Source of the DNA: Mailhella sp.
Lineage (GTDB): Bacteria; Desulfobacterota; Desulfovibrionia; Desulfovibrionales; Desulfovibrionaceae
Length of the DNA stretch: 42,203 nt
Direction: 5' to 3'
Assembly: GCA_017408905.1 (NCBI GenBank)
Contig: JAFQTU010000064.1
Location: 1-42,203, forward strand
Position numbers and translations under genes: made by a program. Positions 31,174 through 39,205 of the stretch are shown in pieces (the stretch's first letter is position 1; every line of letters begins with the position of its first letter). The notes under the pieces were generated by a model. It was not told where the DNA came from. It saw nothing but the letters and a program-made list of their open reading frames with translations, and made no database searches.

Positions 31174-31578
31174 ATGCTCCGCTCCCTTCCCCGCCTCCTT
31201 CTCTGTCTGGCCCTCTGCCTCAGCCTGCTCGCCCCCTGCATTGCGCAGGACTTCCCGGCAGGCGGCTCCCTCACGCCCGAGCAGGGCAACGCCCTCGTCG
31301 GCGAGCGCGCCGGAAAAGGCCTCACCATACTCGACGTGCGCACCCCGCGCGAATTCGCCGCAGGCCATGCCCCCGGGGCCCTGCACATCCCCGTGGACGA
31401 ACTGCTCGACCGCGCTTCCGAAGTGCCGGACGGGCCTGTGCTCATCGTCTGCCGTTCGGGCCGCCGCGCCAAGAACGCCGCCGAAATGCTCCTCCGTCAG
31501 GGCCGTTCCCCCGAAGGCCTGTGGTATCTTTCCGGCTATGCCGACTACAGCAAGGGCGGCGTCCGCTTCCATGACTGA
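31174..31578 (+). CDS. Exported rhodanese-domain protein
   Basis: A 134-residue single-domain rhodanese with a signal peptide (about 1-25, cleavage after CIAQ or nearby), so it acts in the periplasm. The loop CRSGRRA places the active-site cysteine at 93; TILDVRTPREFAAGHAPGALHIP is the domain's conserved core. Rhodanese-fold proteins bind persulfide sulfur, which would suit a sulfur-metabolising host, but the substrate here is unknown. It stands alone between two terminators. A frame starting at 31115 overlaps it but is a shadow. Confidence 0.88.
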   Translation: MLRSLPRLLLCLALCLSLLAPCIAQDFPAGGSLTPEQGNALVGERAGKGLTILDVRTPREFAAGHAPGALHIPVDELLDRASEVPDGPVLIVCRSGRRAKNAAEMLLRQGRSPEGLWYLSGYADYSKGGVRFHD

Positions 31579-31795: not shown

Positions 31796-33814
31796 ATGAA
31801 CATCTTTCTTCTCGCGCTTCTGCTGATGGCGGCGGGTGCTGTGGCCACAGGCGTCATCGCTCTGCGGCCCGTTACGGCCGCGCGCAACAGAACGGCCAAC
31901 ACTCTGGGCCCGGGCGTGGCGGCCATTGCCTGCCTGCTGGGCCTCATCGGCGTCTTTTCCGGCGGCTGGACGAGCATCGAAAGCTTCCAGATGTCCTGGG
32001 GCCTGCCCTTCGGCGCTCTGGCTTTCGGCCTCGACCCTCTTTCCCGCCTCTTCCTCCTGCCCGTCTTCGTGCTGGGCCTGTCCTGCGCTCTGGCAGGCAG
32101 CATATCCCTGCGCCACACGGACCCCGACGAGCATAACCTCGGCGCGCACTGGGCCTTCTACCTGATCCTGCTCCTCGGCATGACCTGCGTGATGACCGCC
32201 CGCGACGGCCTCTTCTTCATGCTCTCGTGGGAACTGATGTCGCTCTCGCCCTTCTTCCTCATCGACTTCAACGACCGCGACCGCACCGTGCAGGACGCCT
32301 CGTGGGTCTATCTGGTGGCGGCGCATCTGGGTGCGGTGTTCCTCATCGCCTTCTTCGCTATGCTCTGGCAGCAGAACGGCACCACGCTCTTCGCCGCCAT
32401 GACGGTGGAAGCCCCGGCCCATGCCACCCTGCTCTTCCTCTTCGCCTTTATCGGCTTCGGAGCCAAGGCCGGTCTCGCGCCTCTGCACGTCTGGCTTCCC
32501 GAAGCCCATCCGGCGGCCCCCAGCCATGTTTCCGCCCTGCTTTCCGGCGCCATGCTGAACGCAGGCCTCTACGGCATCATCCGCTCCTTCGACTTCCTCG
32601 GCCCCATGCAGGATCACCCCGCATGGTGGGGCTGGCTCCTCGTGGGCGTGGGCATCGTGACCGCCCTCATGGGTATCCTGAAGGCTCTCGGCCAGAGCCA
32701 CCTGAAGCGCCTGCTGGCCTACTCCAGCGTGGAGAACATGGGCCTCATGGTCATGGCGGCCGGTATCGGCCTCGTGGGCGTGAAGAACGGCATCGCCTGG
32801 ATCTCCGCCCTCGGCTTCTCCGGCTGCCTCTTCCATATGCTCAACCACTCCGCCTTCAAGGGCCTGCTCTTCCTCTGCGCCGGTGAAGTCCTGCACAGCG
32901 TAGGCACGGTGGACATGACCCGCCTCGGCGGCCTTCAGAAGCGTATGCCCATGCTCGGCATACTCTTCGCCCTCGGTGCGGCCTCCATCGCCTGCCTGCC
33001 CCCGTTCAACGGCTTTGCCGGTGAATTCGTGATCTCCATCTCGCTGGTCAAGGGCCTCTATCTGCCCGGCCTCGAACAGAAGATCGCCATGCTCGTCACC
33101 CTTACCGGCCTCATGCTGGTGAGCGGCGTTTCGGCCTTCGTCTATCTCAAGGCCTACGGCATGACCTTCCTCGGCCAGCCGCGTTCGCAGTTCGCGGAAG
33201 CCCCCCACGTTCCTGCGAACAAGCTCCTTCTGCCGCTCTGCCTGCCTGCCGCTCTCTGCGTCATCGGCGGCCTCGGTGCGAAGTTCGTGTTCCAGATGAT
33301 ACAGCCGACCATCGCCTTCATCCCCGTCATGCCCAAGAACCTGATCGACATCGCTCAGAACGTGGTCATCGACGGCACTTCCGGCCTGCTCGGCAACATC
33401 GCCCTGTTCGGTTTCTTCGGCCTCGTGCTCGTGGCCGGTGCGGTGTACCTGCGTCGCCGCCTGCTCGGCACCAAGGAAGTGAAGCGCGGCCCGACCTGGG
33501 GCTGCGGCTACCAGTACGGCACGCCCCGCATCCAGTACACCCCGGCTTCCTTCGTGGAGCCCGCCGCCCGTATCTTCGGCCCTGTCATCGGCACCGAGAC
33601 CAAGGAACAGCTCGACCAGAGCTACTTCCCGCAGAAGTCCACCTTCGGCGTCAGCGCGCCCGACGTGGTGCGCGGCAAGTTCTACACCCCGCTCTTCGAA
33701 GCTGTGCTCAACGGCTTCAACCACCTCAAGGTCTTCCAGAGCGGCGTGGTGAACACCTACATCCTCTATATCCTCGTCACGCTTGTGGCGCTTCTCGTCT
33801 GGGGGGTGGCATAA
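31796..33814 (+). CDS. HyfB/NuoL-like proton-pump subunit of an Ehr-type complex
   Basis: Antiporter-like membrane subunit expected to move protons (or Na+). The 672 residues match the length of E. coli HyfB. There are about 15 membrane helices; the proton-channel lysine lies in AKAGLAPLHVWLPEAHP (Lys224) with the following PSHVSALLSGAMLNAG motif. The C-terminal part has the WGCGYQY and SFVEPAARIFGP segments of HyfB/HycC. A GGGGAA site precedes the ATG at 31796; the open frame extends further upstream but into the terminator. First gene of a six-gene operon; its stop overlaps the next start (TAATG). Confidence 0.92.
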   Translation: MNIFLLALLLMAAGAVATGVIALRPVTAARNRTANTLGPGVAAIACLLGLIGVFSGGWTSIESFQMSWGLPFGALAFGLDPLSRLFLLPVFVLGLSCALAGSISLRHTDPDEHNLGAHWAFYLILLLGMTCVMTARDGLFFMLSWELMSLSPFFLIDFNDRDRTVQDASWVYLVAAHLGAVFLIAFFAMLWQQNGTTLFAAMTVEAPAHATLLFLFAFIGFGAKAGLAPLHVWLPEAHPAAPSHVSALLSGAMLNAGLYGIIRSFDFLGPMQDHPAWWGWLLVGVGIVTALMGILKALGQSHLKRLLAYSSVENMGLMVMAAGIGLVGVKNGIAWISALGFSGCLFHMLNHSAFKGLLFLCAGEVLHSVGTVDMTRLGGLQKRMPMLGILFALGAASIACLPPFNGFAGEFVISISLVKGLYLPGLEQKIAMLVTLTGLMLVSGVSAFVYLKAYGMTFLGQPRSQFAEAPHVPANKLLLPLCLPAALCVIGGLGAKFVFQMIQPTIAFIPVMPKNLIDIAQNVVIDGTSGLLGNIALFGFFGLVLVAGAVYLRRRLLGTKEVKRGPTWGCGYQYGTPRIQYTPASFVEPAARIFGPVIGTETKEQLDQSYFPQKSTFGVSAPDVVRGKFYTPLFEAVLNGFNHLKVFQSGVVNTYILYILVTLVALLVWGVA

Positions 33815-34746
33815 TGGATTTCCTCGTCTATCTGCTCCAGCTCGTGCTCGCTCTGGCTCTGGCTCCGCTGGTCCCCGGCATTATCAACCGGGTGAAGGCC
33901 AAGTTCGCCGGTCGCCACGGCAAACCCGTTCTTCAGCTCTACTACGATATCGCCAAGCTCATCCGCAAAGGTGAAGTCATCAGCGATACCGCCACGTGGG
34001 TCTTCACCGCAGGCCCCGTCGTCTCCATGGTGACGGCCGTTCTGGCTCTGGCCCTCCTGCCCCTCGGCGGCGTGGCCTCGCCCTTCGGCTTCAACGGCGA
34101 CTTCATCCTCTGCGCCTACCTTCTCGGCATGGGCCGCTTCGCCACCGTGCTGGCCGCCCTCGACACCGGCTCTCCCTTCGAAGGCATGGGCGCCAGCCGC
34201 GAAGCCCTGTTCGGCGCCATCGGCGAACCCGTGCTCTTCCTGAGCTTCCTCGCCCTGGTGAGCACCGCCATGTCCATGGGCATCCCCTCCACGGAAGTGT
34301 CGCTCTCCGCGCTGTTCTGCGGCTTCTCGCCTCTGGCCTGGGTCGCCGGCCGCCCCGAGCTCATGCTCCTCGTGGCTTCCATGGGCGTGCTCCTTCTGGT
34401 GGAAAACTGCCGCATCCCCGTGGACGACCCCAACACTCACCTTGAGCTCACCATGATCCATGAAGTCATGGTGCTCGACCACTCCGGCCCCAATCTCGCC
34501 TTCATCCTGTACGGCGCTTCCGTGAAGCTGTGGATCTTCGCCGTGCTTCTGGCCGGTCTGGTCATTCCCGCCATGCCCGTGTGGGCCTACACGCTGGCCA
34601 TGCTGGCCGCCGTGTTCGCCGTGGCCGTGCTGGTGGGCGTCATCGAATCCATCATGGCCCGTCTGCGTATGCACATCGTGCCTGCGCTCATCGGCCTTGC
34701 CGGTGCGGTCTCCGCTTTCGTTCTCATTCTGACTCTGGTTCGGTAA
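33814..34746 (+). CDS. HyfC/NuoH-like membrane subunit of an Ehr-type complex
   Basis: Connects the soluble arm to the pump subunits in complex I and group 4 hydrogenases. The 310 residues and about eight helices match HyfC/HycD. The conserved acidic loop between helices contains VENCRIPVDDPNTHLELTM with Glu197 and Glu211, the segment that lines the quinone-like chamber or ion path in relatives. It follows the HyfB-like gene with overlapping stop and start codons, and the next gene begins 5 bases after its stop. Confidence 0.92.
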   Translation: MDFLVYLLQLVLALALAPLVPGIINRVKAKFAGRHGKPVLQLYYDIAKLIRKGEVISDTATWVFTAGPVVSMVTAVLALALLPLGGVASPFGFNGDFILCAYLLGMGRFATVLAALDTGSPFEGMGASREALFGAIGEPVLFLSFLALVSTAMSMGIPSTEVSLSALFCGFSPLAWVAGRPELMLLVASMGVLLLVENCRIPVDDPNTHLELTMIHEVMVLDHSGPNLAFILYGASVKLWIFAVLLAGLVIPAMPVWAYTLAMLAAVFAVAVLVGVIESIMARLRMHIVPALIGLAGAVSAFVLILTLVR

Positions 34747-34751
34747 CTGTC

Positions 34752-35396
34752 ATGTACTCGCTCTTCCAGTTCGTCATACTCCTGCTCCTCATCACCGACC
34801 TCATCGTGCTGTGGTCGGGCCGCGTCCTTATGCTCATCCGGCTTTCCGCCATTCAGGGCATACTGCTTGCCGCCCTTCTGCTCCTGCCCATCAACGGGGT
34901 CCTCGATGGCGAGCATATCTTCCTGGCCTGCGCCGTCTTCGCCCTCAAGGGCATCGGCTTCCCTGTCTTCCTCCGCCGCACCAGTCACAAGCTGGGCATC
35001 GAGCCCATGGTGCGCCTGCGCCTCGGCCGCTTCTTCCCCCTGCTGGCCGGTCTGGCCTGCCTTGCCTTCTCGCTTCTGCTTGAGAACAGCATCCCCGAAG
35101 CTCAGGGCCTGTTCCCGCCCCTGCTCCTGCCCGTGGCTCTGACCACCCTGTTCACCGGCCTCATCGTCGTGGTGAGCTGTGCCAAGGCGCTCACGCAGGT
35201 CATCGGCTATCTCGTGGCGGAAAACGGCATTTTCATCCTCGGCATCCCGCTCATGACCGAAGGCTCCATGTGGTTCGAACTGAGCATCCTGCTCGATGTG
35301 TTCGCCGCCATTTTCGTCATGGCCATTGCCATCAACCATATCAACAGTGCCTTCGCCTCCATCGACCTTGCGCACTTCCGCAATCTGAGGGACTAA
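34752..35396 (+). CDS. HyfE-like membrane subunit of an Ehr-type complex
   Basis: Small membrane subunit of 214 residues with about six or seven helices, matching HyfE in size and in resemblance to NuoK at the C-terminal half (GLIVVVSCAKALTQVIGYLVAENGIF contains the Glu typical of NuoK-like helices). It is not found in the formate hydrogenlyase-1 (hyc) operon, which favours a hyf/Ehr origin. The ATG at 34752 gives the natural membrane-helix start; upstream codons overlap the previous gene. Confidence 0.88.
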   Translation: MYSLFQFVILLLLITDLIVLWSGRVLMLIRLSAIQGILLAALLLLPINGVLDGEHIFLACAVFALKGIGFPVFLRRTSHKLGIEPMVRLRLGRFFPLLAGLACLAFSLLLENSIPEAQGLFPPLLLPVALTTLFTGLIVVVSCAKALTQVIGYLVAENGIFILGIPLMTEGSMWFELSILLDVFAAIFVMAIAINHINSAFASIDLAHFRNLRD

Positions 35397-35399
35397 GCC

Positions 35400-36899
35400 A
35401 TGATGCTCACTCTGCTTCTCTTCGTCCCCCTGGTCGCCGGTGTCGCCATGTTCATCCCCGGCGCATGGCCCCGCCGCCCGCTCCTTCCCGTGGTGGCGCT
35501 CATCCACACCATCCTCTCCGGCATGACGCTCAGCGCCGTGCGCTCCGGCGAGAAGATCTCCGCCCTCGGCGGTATGCTCCAGCCCGACGCGCTGGGCGTG
35601 ATCTTCCTCATGCTGGCCAGCATCCTCTTCCTCGCAGCCTCGGTCTACGCCGTGGGCTACCTGCGTGAGGAAGAAAAGCATCACGTCAAGCGCGACATCC
35701 AGAAGGGCCAGCTCTTCACCAACGCGCCCGAAGCGCGCTTCCTCTCCTGCCTCTGCTTCTTCGTGGCGGCCATGACCCTCGTGACCACCACCCCGAACCT
35801 CGGCGCCCTGTGGGTGGGCATCGAACTGACCACGCTGGCCAGCGCTCCGCTCATCTACTTCCACCGCCACCAGAGCTCCATGGAAGCAACGTGGAAATAC
35901 CTCATGATCTGTTCCGTGGGCATCGCTCTCGCCCTGCTCGGCAACATCCTCATGAGCGTGGCCTTCTTCCAGAGCGACGTCGACCTGCACGGCATGGATC
36001 AGCTCTCCGCCTTCATGGCCGCCGCCCAGTCCGTCAAGGGCACGGACAGCACCATCTGGCTCAAGGCCGCCTTCATCTTCCTGCTGGTGGGCTACGGCAC
36101 CAAGATGGGCCTCGCCCCCCTGCACACCTGGCTCCCCGACGCGCACAGTCAGGCTCCGTCCATGGTGTCGGGTATGCTTTCCGGCGCTCTGCTGAACTGC
36201 GCTCTGCTCGGCATCCTGCGCGGCCATCAGATCATGATCGCTGGCGGCCTCTCCCAGTTCTCCGGCGACCTGCTCGTCTTCTTCGGTCTGCTCTCCATGG
36301 CCACGGCCGCGGTGTTCATCGTGGGTCAGGGCCACTACAAGCGCCTGCTGGCCTATTCCAGCGTGGAACACATGGGCATCCTCGCCCTTGCCATCGGCGT
36401 GGGCGGCACGGCCCTCTTCGGCGGTATGCTCCATGCCGTGTGTCATTCGCTCACCAAGTGTATGCTCTTCCTCGTGGCGGGCAACATCCTCACCCGCTAC
36501 CACTCCCTGTCGAGCTACGACGTGCGCGGCCTGCGCGAAGATATGCCCCTTTCCGGCGCGCTCTGGACGGCGGGCTTCCTCGCCATCGTGGGTTCCCCGC
36601 CCTTCGGCCTTTTCGTCAGTGAATTCACCATCCTGAAGGGCATTTTCGCCAGCGGCCGCATCTTCGTGGCGCTGGGCTACCTTGCCGCTCTGGCCATTAT
36701 CTTCGTGGGTATGTCCGTGCCTGTCCTGCGCATGGTGCAGGGCCGTCCGCCCCGCGACGTGCCCAAGGAATACAGCGAATCCCTCTATACCGTGCTTCCT
36801 CCCGCCGTCCTGTGCCTCATGGTGCTGGGCCTCGGCTTCTGCGTGCCTGACTGGCTCGCCGATACGCTCAACCGCGCCGCCGCGCTTCTGGGGGCCTGA
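35400..36899 (+). CDS. HyfF/NuoN-like proton-pump subunit of an Ehr-type complex
   Basis: Second antiporter-like subunit, 499 residues with about 14 helices. The channel lysine lies in TKMGLAPLHTWLPDAHSQAPS (Lys235), and the helix-7-like Lys and Glu positions of NuoL/M/N relatives are present (LVTTTPNLGALWVGIELTTLA). Two such subunits in one operon (with the HyfB-like one) imply at least two ion channels per complex. Its stop TGA overlaps the ATG of the large subunit. Confidence 0.92.
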   Translation: MMLTLLLFVPLVAGVAMFIPGAWPRRPLLPVVALIHTILSGMTLSAVRSGEKISALGGMLQPDALGVIFLMLASILFLAASVYAVGYLREEEKHHVKRDIQKGQLFTNAPEARFLSCLCFFVAAMTLVTTTPNLGALWVGIELTTLASAPLIYFHRHQSSMEATWKYLMICSVGIALALLGNILMSVAFFQSDVDLHGMDQLSAFMAAAQSVKGTDSTIWLKAAFIFLLVGYGTKMGLAPLHTWLPDAHSQAPSMVSGMLSGALLNCALLGILRGHQIMIAGGLSQFSGDLLVFFGLLSMATAAVFIVGQGHYKRLLAYSSVEHMGILALAIGVGGTALFGGMLHAVCHSLTKCMLFLVAGNILTRYHSLSSYDVRGLREDMPLSGALWTAGFLAIVGSPPFGLFVSEFTILKGIFASGRIFVALGYLAALAIIFVGMSVPVLRMVQGRPPRDVPKEYSESLYTVLPPAVLCLMVLGLGFCVPDWLADTLNRAAALLGA

Positions 36900-38392
36900 T
36901 GTTCAACTACAAGGAAACCATAGAATACTCGGCCCTTCCTCTGCTCCCCATGGAAGAGCTCACCGTCACCGTGACGGATCACTGCCGCCGCGGCTGGCGT
37001 ATGCTGGCCTTCTTCGGCCTTGAAGGCGAAAGCGGCCGTGAAGTGATCTGCATCCTCGGCCATGCCGCCGACCAGATGCTGGAAGCCTTCCGCGCTCCTA
37101 TGCCCGCCCGCTACCAGTCCATCACGCCCAACTGCCCGCAGGCCCATCTCTTCGAGCGCGAACTCGCCGAAATGTGGGGCGTGAAGCCCGAAGGGCATCC
37201 GTGGCTCAAGCCCGTGCGCTTCTGCCCCGCCTTCGAAGGCGAACGCGATTCCCGCCCCGGCCCTGCCGAAGCCGACTACTACCGCATCGAGGGCGAGGAA
37301 GTGCATGAAGTGGCCGTGGGCCCGGTGCACGCCGGCGTCATCGAGCCCGGGCACTTCCGCTTCCAGTGCTACGGCGAAAACGTGATGCACCTCGAGATAC
37401 AGCTCGGCTTCCAGCACCGCGACGTGGAGCACCTCATCCTGAAGTCCCCGGCGAAGCTCGTCCTGCCCATCATGGAGAATATCGCGGGCGACACGGCCAT
37501 CGGCCATTCCACGGCCTACTGCACCGTGATGGAACGCCTTGCCGGGGTCGAACCCACGAACCGCGCCCACATCCTGCGCCGCGTGGCCCTCGAACTGGAA
37601 CGCCTTGCCAACCATACCCGCGACCTCGGCGCCATCGGCGGCGATACCGGCTTCCTGCCCACGTCCTCGTGGAACGGCCGCATCACCGGCGACTGGCTGA
37701 ACATCACCTCCGAACTCTGCGGAAGCCGCATGGGCCGCAACCTGCTCTGCCCCGGCGGCGTGAAGTGGGACGTGGACGCCGACCTCGCCAAGGCGCTGGT
37801 CAAGCGCGTGCAGGCCACCTACCGCGATACGCGCGGCTCTGTGGATGTCATGCTGGAAACGACCAGCGTGCTGGCAAGGCTCGAAGGCACGGGCACGGTG
37901 TCGCGTCAGGCCGCGGCCGACCTCGGCCTCGTGGGCATGGCCGCCCGCGCTTCCGGCGTGGACATGGACTGCCGCTTCGACTGGCCCCTCTGCGACATCG
38001 AGAACCCGGCCCTCAGCAAGCGCGTTCCCGGCTCCGGCGACGTGCTGGCCCGCACCCTCGTGCGCAGTCAGGAAGTGGACGATTCCGCCGCCTCCGCCAC
38101 GGCCGACCTCACCTTCCTCGGTGAGACTTCCGGCTCCGAACCCGTGCGCTCGGCCATGCCCGAAGCGCTTCCGGCAGGCCGCCTTGCCGTGGCCCTTGTG
38201 GAAGGCTGGCGCGGCGAGATATGCCATGTGGGCATCACCGACGCCGAGGGCGGCTGGAAGGCCTACAAGGTGGTCGATCCCTCCTTCCACAACTGGACCG
38301 GCCTCGCTATGGCCCTGCGCGGGGAGCAGATCTCCGACTTCCCGCTGTGCAACAAGAGCTTCAACCTGTCCTACTGCGGGCATGACCTGTAG
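36899..38392 (+). CDS. NuoC+NuoD-like large subunit of an Ehr-type complex, NiFe ligands absent
   Basis: A 497-residue fusion: an N-terminal NuoC-like (30 kDa) domain (about 1-130, with FERELAEMWGVKPEGHP) and a NuoD/hydrogenase large-subunit domain (about 140-497, starting GPVHAGVIEPGHFRF). In [NiFe] hydrogenases two CxxC pairs bind the metal centre. Here the first site reads ENIAGDTAIGHS (193-204) where hydrogenases have ERxCGxCxxxHS, and the C-terminal site reads DPSFHNW (460-466) where they have DPCxxC. All four ligand cysteines are missing, so a NiFe site cannot form in the known way. This is the mark of Ehr complexes, not of a degraded gene: the rest is well conserved and ends in SFNLSYCGHDL. 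The C-terminus is also not followed by a protease-cleaved extension. Confidence 0.9.
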   Translation: MFNYKETIEYSALPLLPMEELTVTVTDHCRRGWRMLAFFGLEGESGREVICILGHAADQMLEAFRAPMPARYQSITPNCPQAHLFERELAEMWGVKPEGHPWLKPVRFCPAFEGERDSRPGPAEADYYRIEGEEVHEVAVGPVHAGVIEPGHFRFQCYGENVMHLEIQLGFQHRDVEHLILKSPAKLVLPIMENIAGDTAIGHSTAYCTVMERLAGVEPTNRAHILRRVALELERLANHTRDLGAIGGDTGFLPTSSWNGRITGDWLNITSELCGSRMGRNLLCPGGVKWDVDADLAKALVKRVQATYRDTRGSVDVMLETTSVLARLEGTGTVSRQAAADLGLVGMAARASGVDMDCRFDWPLCDIENPALSKRVPGSGDVLARTLVRSQEVDDSAASATADLTFLGETSGSEPVRSAMPEALPAGRLAVALVEGWRGEICHVGITDAEGGWKAYKVVDPSFHNWTGLAMALRGEQISDFPLCNKSFNLSYCGHDL

Positions 38393-38401
38393 GAGAGCGC
38401 C

Positions 38402-39205
38402 ATGTTCAATATCCTCAAGGAACGCCTCCATCAGGGCTACCGCACGCTGAACTACCCCCACAAGATGCCGGTCATCACGCCGCGCTTCGCGGGCCTGCCC
38501 TCCATCACGCCCACGAGCTGCGCCTCCTGCGAGAGCAGGGCCTGCCTCAAGGCCTGCCCGATGGGCGCGCTGAACATTGCCGAGACCGGCCCGGAACTGG
38601 ACATGGGCCGCTGCCTCTTCTGCCGCGCCTGCGAAAGCGCCTGCCCCGAGAAGAAGATCACCTTCACCCACGAACACCGCATCGCCGCCTACAGCCGCGA
38701 AGCCCTCATCGTGCGCGGCCCGGCCCCGGCGGACATCTGCCAGCCCGGCGTGCGCCCCGCCCTCGGCACGCAGAAGCGCGACCTCTCGCTCTTCGCGCGC
38801 TCGCTCAAACTCCGCGAAGTGAGCGCGGGCGGGTGCATGGCCTGTGAAGCCGACGTGAACGTGCTCGGCACGCTGATCTACGACCTCGGCCGCTTCGGCA
38901 TCGAATACGCCGCTTCCCCGCGCCATGCGGACGGCATCCTCGTCACCGGCCCGGTGGACGAGAATATGCGCAAGGCCCTGCTCGATACGTGGGAAGCCAC
39001 GCCCGAACCCAAGATCGTCATCGCCGTGGGGACCTGCGCCATCTCCGGCGGCACGTTCTCCTGCGGGCGCGAGAACTGCCTCGGCGTGGAAGACGTGCTC
39101 CCCAAGGGCTCCGTGGACGTCTATGTCCCGGGCTGCCCGCCGAACCCGTGGAGCATACTCGACGGCATACTCTCCGCCGCGTGGAAGAAGAACAACATGA
39201 AATAA
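38402..39205 (+). CDS. Ferredoxin + NuoB-like small subunit fusion of an Ehr-type complex
   Basis: A 267-residue fusion. The N-terminal ferredoxin-like part has two 4Fe-4S motifs: Cys40, 43, 48, 52 (CxxCxxxxCxxxCP spacing) and Cys71, 74, 77, 81 (CxxCxxCxxxCP). The C-terminal part resembles NuoB/HyfI, with Cys145 and Cys148 (GGCMACEA), Cys212 (VGTCAISGG) and Cys245 (PGCPPNP) as ligands of the proximal cluster. In E. coli hyf these are two genes (hyfH, hyfI). All cluster ligands are kept, so electrons can travel toward the large subunit even though it has no NiFe site. An AGGAG ribosome site precedes the ATG. Last gene of the operon. Confidence 0.9.
   Translation: MFNILKERLHQGYRTLNYPHKMPVITPRFAGLPSITPTSCASCESRACLKACPMGALNIAETGPELDMGRCLFCRACESACPEKKITFTHEHRIAAYSREALIVRGPAPADICQPGVRPALGTQKRDLSLFARSLKLREVSAGGCMACEADVNVLGTLIYDLGRFGIEYAASPRHADGILVTGPVDENMRKALLDTWEATPEPKIVIAVGTCAISGGTFSCGRENCLGVEDVLPKGSVDVYVPGCPPNPWSILDGILSAAWKKNNMK

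Follow-up and report, generated by a model that had tools for sequence, protein, structure and literature searches.

Energy-converting hydrogenase-related, or Ech hydrogenase-related (Ehr), complexes have been noted since 2005. In Geobacter sulfurreducens, Ehr subunits were detected by proteomics, and formate-grown cells contained more of them than cells kept with hydrogen (PMC7894505); a complex of formate dehydrogenase with Ehr has been proposed for Riflemargulisbacteria and Saganbacteria (PMC6349859). MBS is a further nickel-free hydrogenase relative, which turned into a ferredoxin-dependent sulfur reductase; two of its four Ni cysteines remain, an equivalent of MbhL E21 is lacking, and its proximal cluster is bound by three cysteines from a motif shortened by three residues, with one non-cysteine iron needed for catalysis (PMC7684303). 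Here we describe an Ehr operon on a 42,203-nucleotide contig of Mailhella sp. (Desulfovibrionaceae; JAFQTU010000064.1 of assembly GCA_017408905.1), the whole of which is called the window below.

The operon consisted of six contiguous same-strand open reading frames spanning 31796-39205, in which neighbours overlapped or lay at most 9 bases apart and no frameshift was found. Pfam and NCBIfam named the products as HyfB-, HyfC-, HyfE- and HyfF-like proteins, a NuoC/D-type large subunit (EhrL) and a ferredoxin-NuoB fusion (EhrS). The operon is thus real and intact, in agreement with the first-pass annotation, which had described a compact six-gene operon with its other subunits intact. The HyfE-like (EhrC-like) protein matched NF008556 (hydrogenase 4 membrane subunit E) at 1e-12, below that model's cut-off, and had no Pfam match. 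The core order HyfB-HyfC-HyfE-HyfF-EhrL-EhrS, the loss of the Ni/Fe cysteines and the C-terminal signature were shared with the Ehr of Geobacter (GSU0739-0745), and EhrL showed about 50% identity to its counterparts in Geobacter and Geomonas. A starred branch of a quick tree, whose Geobacter sequences were from members other than G. sulfurreducens itself, separated all Ehr rows (Geobacter and Geomonas included) from HycE/HyfG, Ech-type and NuoCD sequences; the deep order was unsure because of long branches. Judged by its sequence, and as had been proposed earlier, the operon is a new member of the already known Ehr family.

Cysteine loss and conserved residues in EhrL

EhrL lacks all four [NiFe]-binding cysteines. 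In alignments with HycE and HyfG made by HMMER and MAFFT, the L1 sequence ENIAGDTAIGHS fell on HycE DRVCGICGFAHS, with A196 and T199 occupying both cysteine positions of HycE CGIC, and this was the first lost pair recognized in the first-pass annotation. That both pairs were lost was also correct, but the segment DPSFHNW (460-466), which had been taken as the second site, fell on HycE AATYANW, about 30 residues ahead of the second cysteine pair. The true L2 site, HycE DPCYSC, fell on NLSYCG (489-494), with S491 and G494 at the cysteine positions. One new cysteine, C493, lies between the two replaced L2 positions, and another is present at C484. The last residue of EhrL, L497, aligns with the arginine of HycE DPCYSCTDR, after which the maturation protease cuts HycE; the tail removed from hydrogenase precursors is therefore not encoded here.

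Besides the host, 18 of 59 related genomes had orthologues of EhrL, which were 48-93% identical to it along almost their entire length. A wider scan with one genome per species gave at least 80 loci from many phyla, at least 13 in number, and an alignment of 81 EhrL sequences. None of these sequences had a cysteine at more than one of the four Ni/Fe positions, and a lone C196 occurred in three. D198, H203, C157, C274, C493, E149 and R438 were invariant, C484 was present in 77 and missing in 4, and the C-terminus CNKSFNLSYCG(H/F)DL-stop was almost unchanged. This near-invariance across 81 loci exceeds chance. E149 occupies the position of MbhL E21, the proton-transfer glutamate of MBH, while H38 and Y87 of Nqo4, the residues for the quinone headgroup in complex I, fell on I148 and G197.

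Among solved structures, HycE of formate hydrogenlyase was the top sequence match to EhrL, and the predicted EhrL fold matched HycE with Z 38.6 and 2.6 Å over 473 residues, compared with Z 33-35 for NuoD-type chains. The AlphaFold model had a mean predicted local distance difference test (pLDDT) of 86.7, with values below 50 in the pocket loops and the last ten residues. In addition to this nearest sequence and fold, the hydrogenase-3/4 group (HycE, HyfG) shares with the present Ehr the CxxC-type proximal cluster and the proton-route glutamate and arginine (R438), whereas the Ni/Fe cysteines, the cleavable C-terminal tail and an adjoining formate dehydrogenase are absent here, and the host lacks a HypD match.

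Electron path, ion arm and host genome

EhrS contained two ferredoxin-type [4Fe-4S] cluster motifs in its N-terminal part, and the ligands of its proximal cluster, C145, C148, C212 and C245, included a CxxC spaced as in HycG, where NuoB has a tandem CC. The pump residues of the HyfB- and HyfF-like subunits (Table 1) were conserved, as were acidic residues of the HyfC-like subunit. Against the sister genome G002 (EhrL 93% identity), the ratio of nonsynonymous to synonymous substitution rates (dN/dS) was 0.12-0.21 for each of the six genes, which shows purifying selection on every one of them. In the host genome, which measures 1.96 Mb and is 97.8% complete, neither the [NiFe] large subunit (PF00374) nor HypD had a match, and HypD was not matched in four more Ehr-bearing genomes either (G024, G026, G070, G076). 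For G024, the GC content of the Ehr locus (52.7%) speaks against an assignment to Lawsonia. The host carries PFOR, an rnf cluster with an RnfD-family protein, and four [FeFe] hydrogenases (L137, L138, L139, L140), and for three of these the top NCBIfam model was that of the NADH-dependent group A6. PFOR-family matches over the cut-off were found in 22 of 24 Ehr-bearing genomes, and the occurrence of Rnf did not track Ehr.

Ehr is probably a nickel-free, ion-pumping oxidoreductase that oxidises ferredoxin and reduces an acceptor in the remodelled EhrL pocket, which would make it an energy-conserving enzyme related to group 4 hydrogenases and complex I but not itself a hydrogenase. Reduced ferredoxin would pass electrons to the two N-terminal clusters of EhrS, and these to the proximal [4Fe-4S] cluster with its four hydrogenase-type cysteines, from which they would reach the acceptor at the place of [NiFe] in hydrogenases. 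Protons would enter the pocket by the route retained from hydrogenases (E149), and the redox drop would power the pumping of H+ or Na+ by the HyfB/C/E/F-like arm. In the opposite direction, the complex would spend the ion gradient to reduce ferredoxin. A ferredoxin-driven ion pump had been suggested in the first-pass annotation and is supported by the intact pump residues and by the host's lack of matches to the [NiFe] large subunit and HypD, while the ferredoxin donor, as well as the pumping, its direction and the acceptor, is what we infer. As for the acceptor, (mena)quinone is a possible choice and a disulfide or sulfur compound reduced via the new cysteines a more doubtful one; something else is tentatively put ahead of both.

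Several points weigh against such an enzyme. The Ehr of Geobacter has been regarded as nonfunctional from the loss of the NiFe site (PMC13194489), a verdict reached because hydrogenase activity was lost; the proteomics and the selection results argue against this statement. Biochemical work on the Ehr family was not found in the literature searched, and the ferredoxin donor is proposed by analogy only, because the operon has neither a ferredoxin gene nor an acceptor gene linked to it. The complex I quinone residues, the MBS cluster geometry and, in the operon, any flavin- or nucleotide-binding subunit are all absent, so each candidate acceptor is problematic. The residues of EhrL and EhrS thus fit none of the known superfamily solutions (Ni-Fe, bare cluster, quinone clamp) at the sequence level, and this misfit is no proof of a new solution.

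Other readings of the reaction

A narrower form of the ferredoxin-oxidising pump, in which Ehr is a ferredoxin:menaquinone oxidoreductase similar to complex I without the NADH module and with the quinone in a chamber of EhrL, EhrS and EhrB, is possible, though as a specific proposal it is unlikely. Complex I (NuoB/C/D/H/L/M) shares its architecture and fold, as reflected in the Z scores of the NuoD-type chains, its pump residues, and, in E. coli, the fused C-D arrangement. However, Ehr differs from it in I148 and G197 at the headgroup positions and in the CxxC of the NuoB-like part; the NADH module NuoEFG was absent from the window, and no such family recurred as a neighbour in the 80 listed loci. 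The MenA prenyltransferase of the host was over the cut-off (TIGR00751; L133:3986-4963, contig C3), but MqnA and MqnD had no match, and MenD none over the cut-off, in the host or in the single-contig relative G018, which carries a UbiA-family gene. A quinone, if used in these two, would therefore have to come from an imported precursor, and for the host the combination suggests import of 1,4-dihydroxy-2-naphthoate for menaquinone. Ten further Ehr-bearing genomes, all reached via contigs of metagenome-assembled genomes, likewise had neither MqnA/MqnD nor MenD. The UbiA family itself (PF01040) was useless as a quinone marker, since it matched 24 of 24 genomes and 14 of 14 controls.

Reduction of polysulfide, or of another sulfane or disulfide, at the new EhrL cysteines or at the proximal cluster is rather improbable. 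The precedent of MBS as a nickel-free, ferredoxin-dependent sulfur reductase favours it (PMC7684303), as do the cysteines C157, C274 and C493, together with the mostly kept C484; by analogy, Ehr may also resemble MBS/Mbx of Pyrococcus in coupling ferredoxin oxidation to ion pumping. However, catalysis by MBS needs the shortened motif, which is absent from EhrS with its full hydrogenase CxxC spacing, and EhrL differs from MBS in keeping none of the four Ni cysteines and in having E149 at the E21 position. Within the genus, a rhodanese gene stands upstream of Ehr, but it was inverted in one relative and was not seen upstream of Ehr outside the genus, and as a pointer to sulfur chemistry it was set aside as genus-local.

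Poorer still is the case for formate as the source of electrons, delivered by a formate dehydrogenase docked on EhrS, as in the complex proposed for Riflemargulisbacteria and Saganbacteria (PMC6349859). The higher level of Ehr on formate in G. sulfurreducens agrees with this proposal (PMC7894505), but no PF00384 protein was detected in three Ehr-bearing genomes (an isolate of Pontiella sulfatireligans and two metagenome-assembled genomes), and a Mo/W formate dehydrogenase is therefore not generally required for Ehr. No dehydrogenase family recurred beside Ehr across the 80 listed loci, up to about 8 kb around. As a general rule, an obligatory partnership with formate dehydrogenase is already weakened, and the earlier remark that no maturation or dehydrogenase gene lies nearby held in the window and over the same distance around the relatives.

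A functionless relic of a decaying hydrogenase, which the lost active site suggests and which has been argued for Geobacter (PMC13194489), is very improbable and largely refuted by the low dN/dS of all six genes and the near-invariant motifs over at least 13 phyla, beside the subunits seen by proteomics (PMC7894505). No better placed is a true hydrogenase with relocated metal ligands, since the four conserved EhrL cysteines that could serve it are not in CxxC pairs, one of them (C484) is missing in 4 of 81 sequences, and HypD had no match in five Ehr-bearing genomes, the host included.

Gene neighbourhood and a candidate regulator

The features of the operon are given in Table 1. Upstream of it lies a cluster of division and cell-wall genes ending in ftsA-ftsZ, and the secreted-looking rhodanese (31174-31578 of the window) sits between ftsZ and the operon.

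Table 1. Genes of the Ehr operon and sites within EhrL (window coordinates)
Feature	Position	Strand	Remarks
HyfB/NuoL-like antiporter-type membrane subunit (EhrA-like)	31796..33814	+	672 amino acids; E146, K224, H351/K355, E410
HyfC/HycD/NuoH-like membrane subunit (EhrB-like)	33814..34746	+	310 amino acids
HyfE-like small membrane subunit (EhrC-like)	34752..35396	+	214 amino acids; NCBIfam NF008556
HyfF-like antiporter-type membrane subunit (EhrD-like)	35400..36899	+	499 amino acids; E142, K235, K314, E408; alternative start at 35403
EhrL large subunit (NuoC-like + NuoD/HycE-like)	36899..38392	+	497 amino acids; ends CNKSFNLSYCGHDL-stop; [NiFe] cysteines none
EhrL L1 site, residues 193-204 ENIAGDTAIGHS	37475..37510	+	A196/T199 for CxxC; D198, H203 invariant
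EhrL true L2 site, residues 489-494 NLSYCG	38363..38380	+	HycE DPCYSC column; S491/G494 for cysteines; C493 invariant
EhrS	38402..39205	+	267 amino acids; two [4Fe-4S] ferredoxin motifs fused to NuoB/HycG-like small subunit

One neighbour recurred among the relatives, namely a gene combining a helix-turn-helix (HTH) domain (HTH_17, PF12728) with a phosphotransferase system (PTS) domain (PTS_EIIA_2, PF00359). It headed 46 of the 74 loci that covered the upstream stretch, mostly directly before a HyfB-like gene and often with a 4-base overlap, and it topped Ehr operons in about 13 phyla (for example L063 and L047:3467-4168). In 45 of 48 copies, an xPH motif was found at, or resembling, the phospho-histidine site. 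All 13 loci that belong to Desulfovibrionaceae or to the family of the window lacked the HTH-EIIA gene, and no EIIA_2 domain was found in the host genome. Its absence, the single HyfB-like gene, where many other Ehr operons have two, and the extra EhrS cysteines (FSCGRENC), which are not conserved among relatives, set the present operon apart from Ehr elsewhere.

The HTH-EIIA gene also occurs in three Ehr operons of the same order (L046-L048, family f4), which adjoin groES-groEL; in L047 and L048 it is placed between two HyfB-like genes. Another large subunit without Ni cysteines (L021:920-2206 in G041, same order; RISGKSAFSH and TFGLSVAENDR) lies far from Ehr and carries none of the Ehr cysteines.

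The HTH-EIIA protein is a possible dedicated regulator of Ehr, and in most phyla the synthesis or activity of Ehr may be controlled by such a dedicated DNA-binding protein of a PTS phospho-relay. No published link between Ehr and EIIA was found in the literature searched, of which the coverage was partial, and the association gives a first handle on Ehr regulation.

The results argue against a relic, against a mechanism like that of MBS and against formate dehydrogenase as an obligatory partner, and they yield a short list of residues for mutation. Since no [NiFe] large subunit or HypD was detected in the host, Ehr is open here to study without such a background. Ehr is spread across many phyla of anaerobes, and the interest of the finding rests on the question of the Ehr reaction and on the EIIA-HTH association rather than on the present copy.

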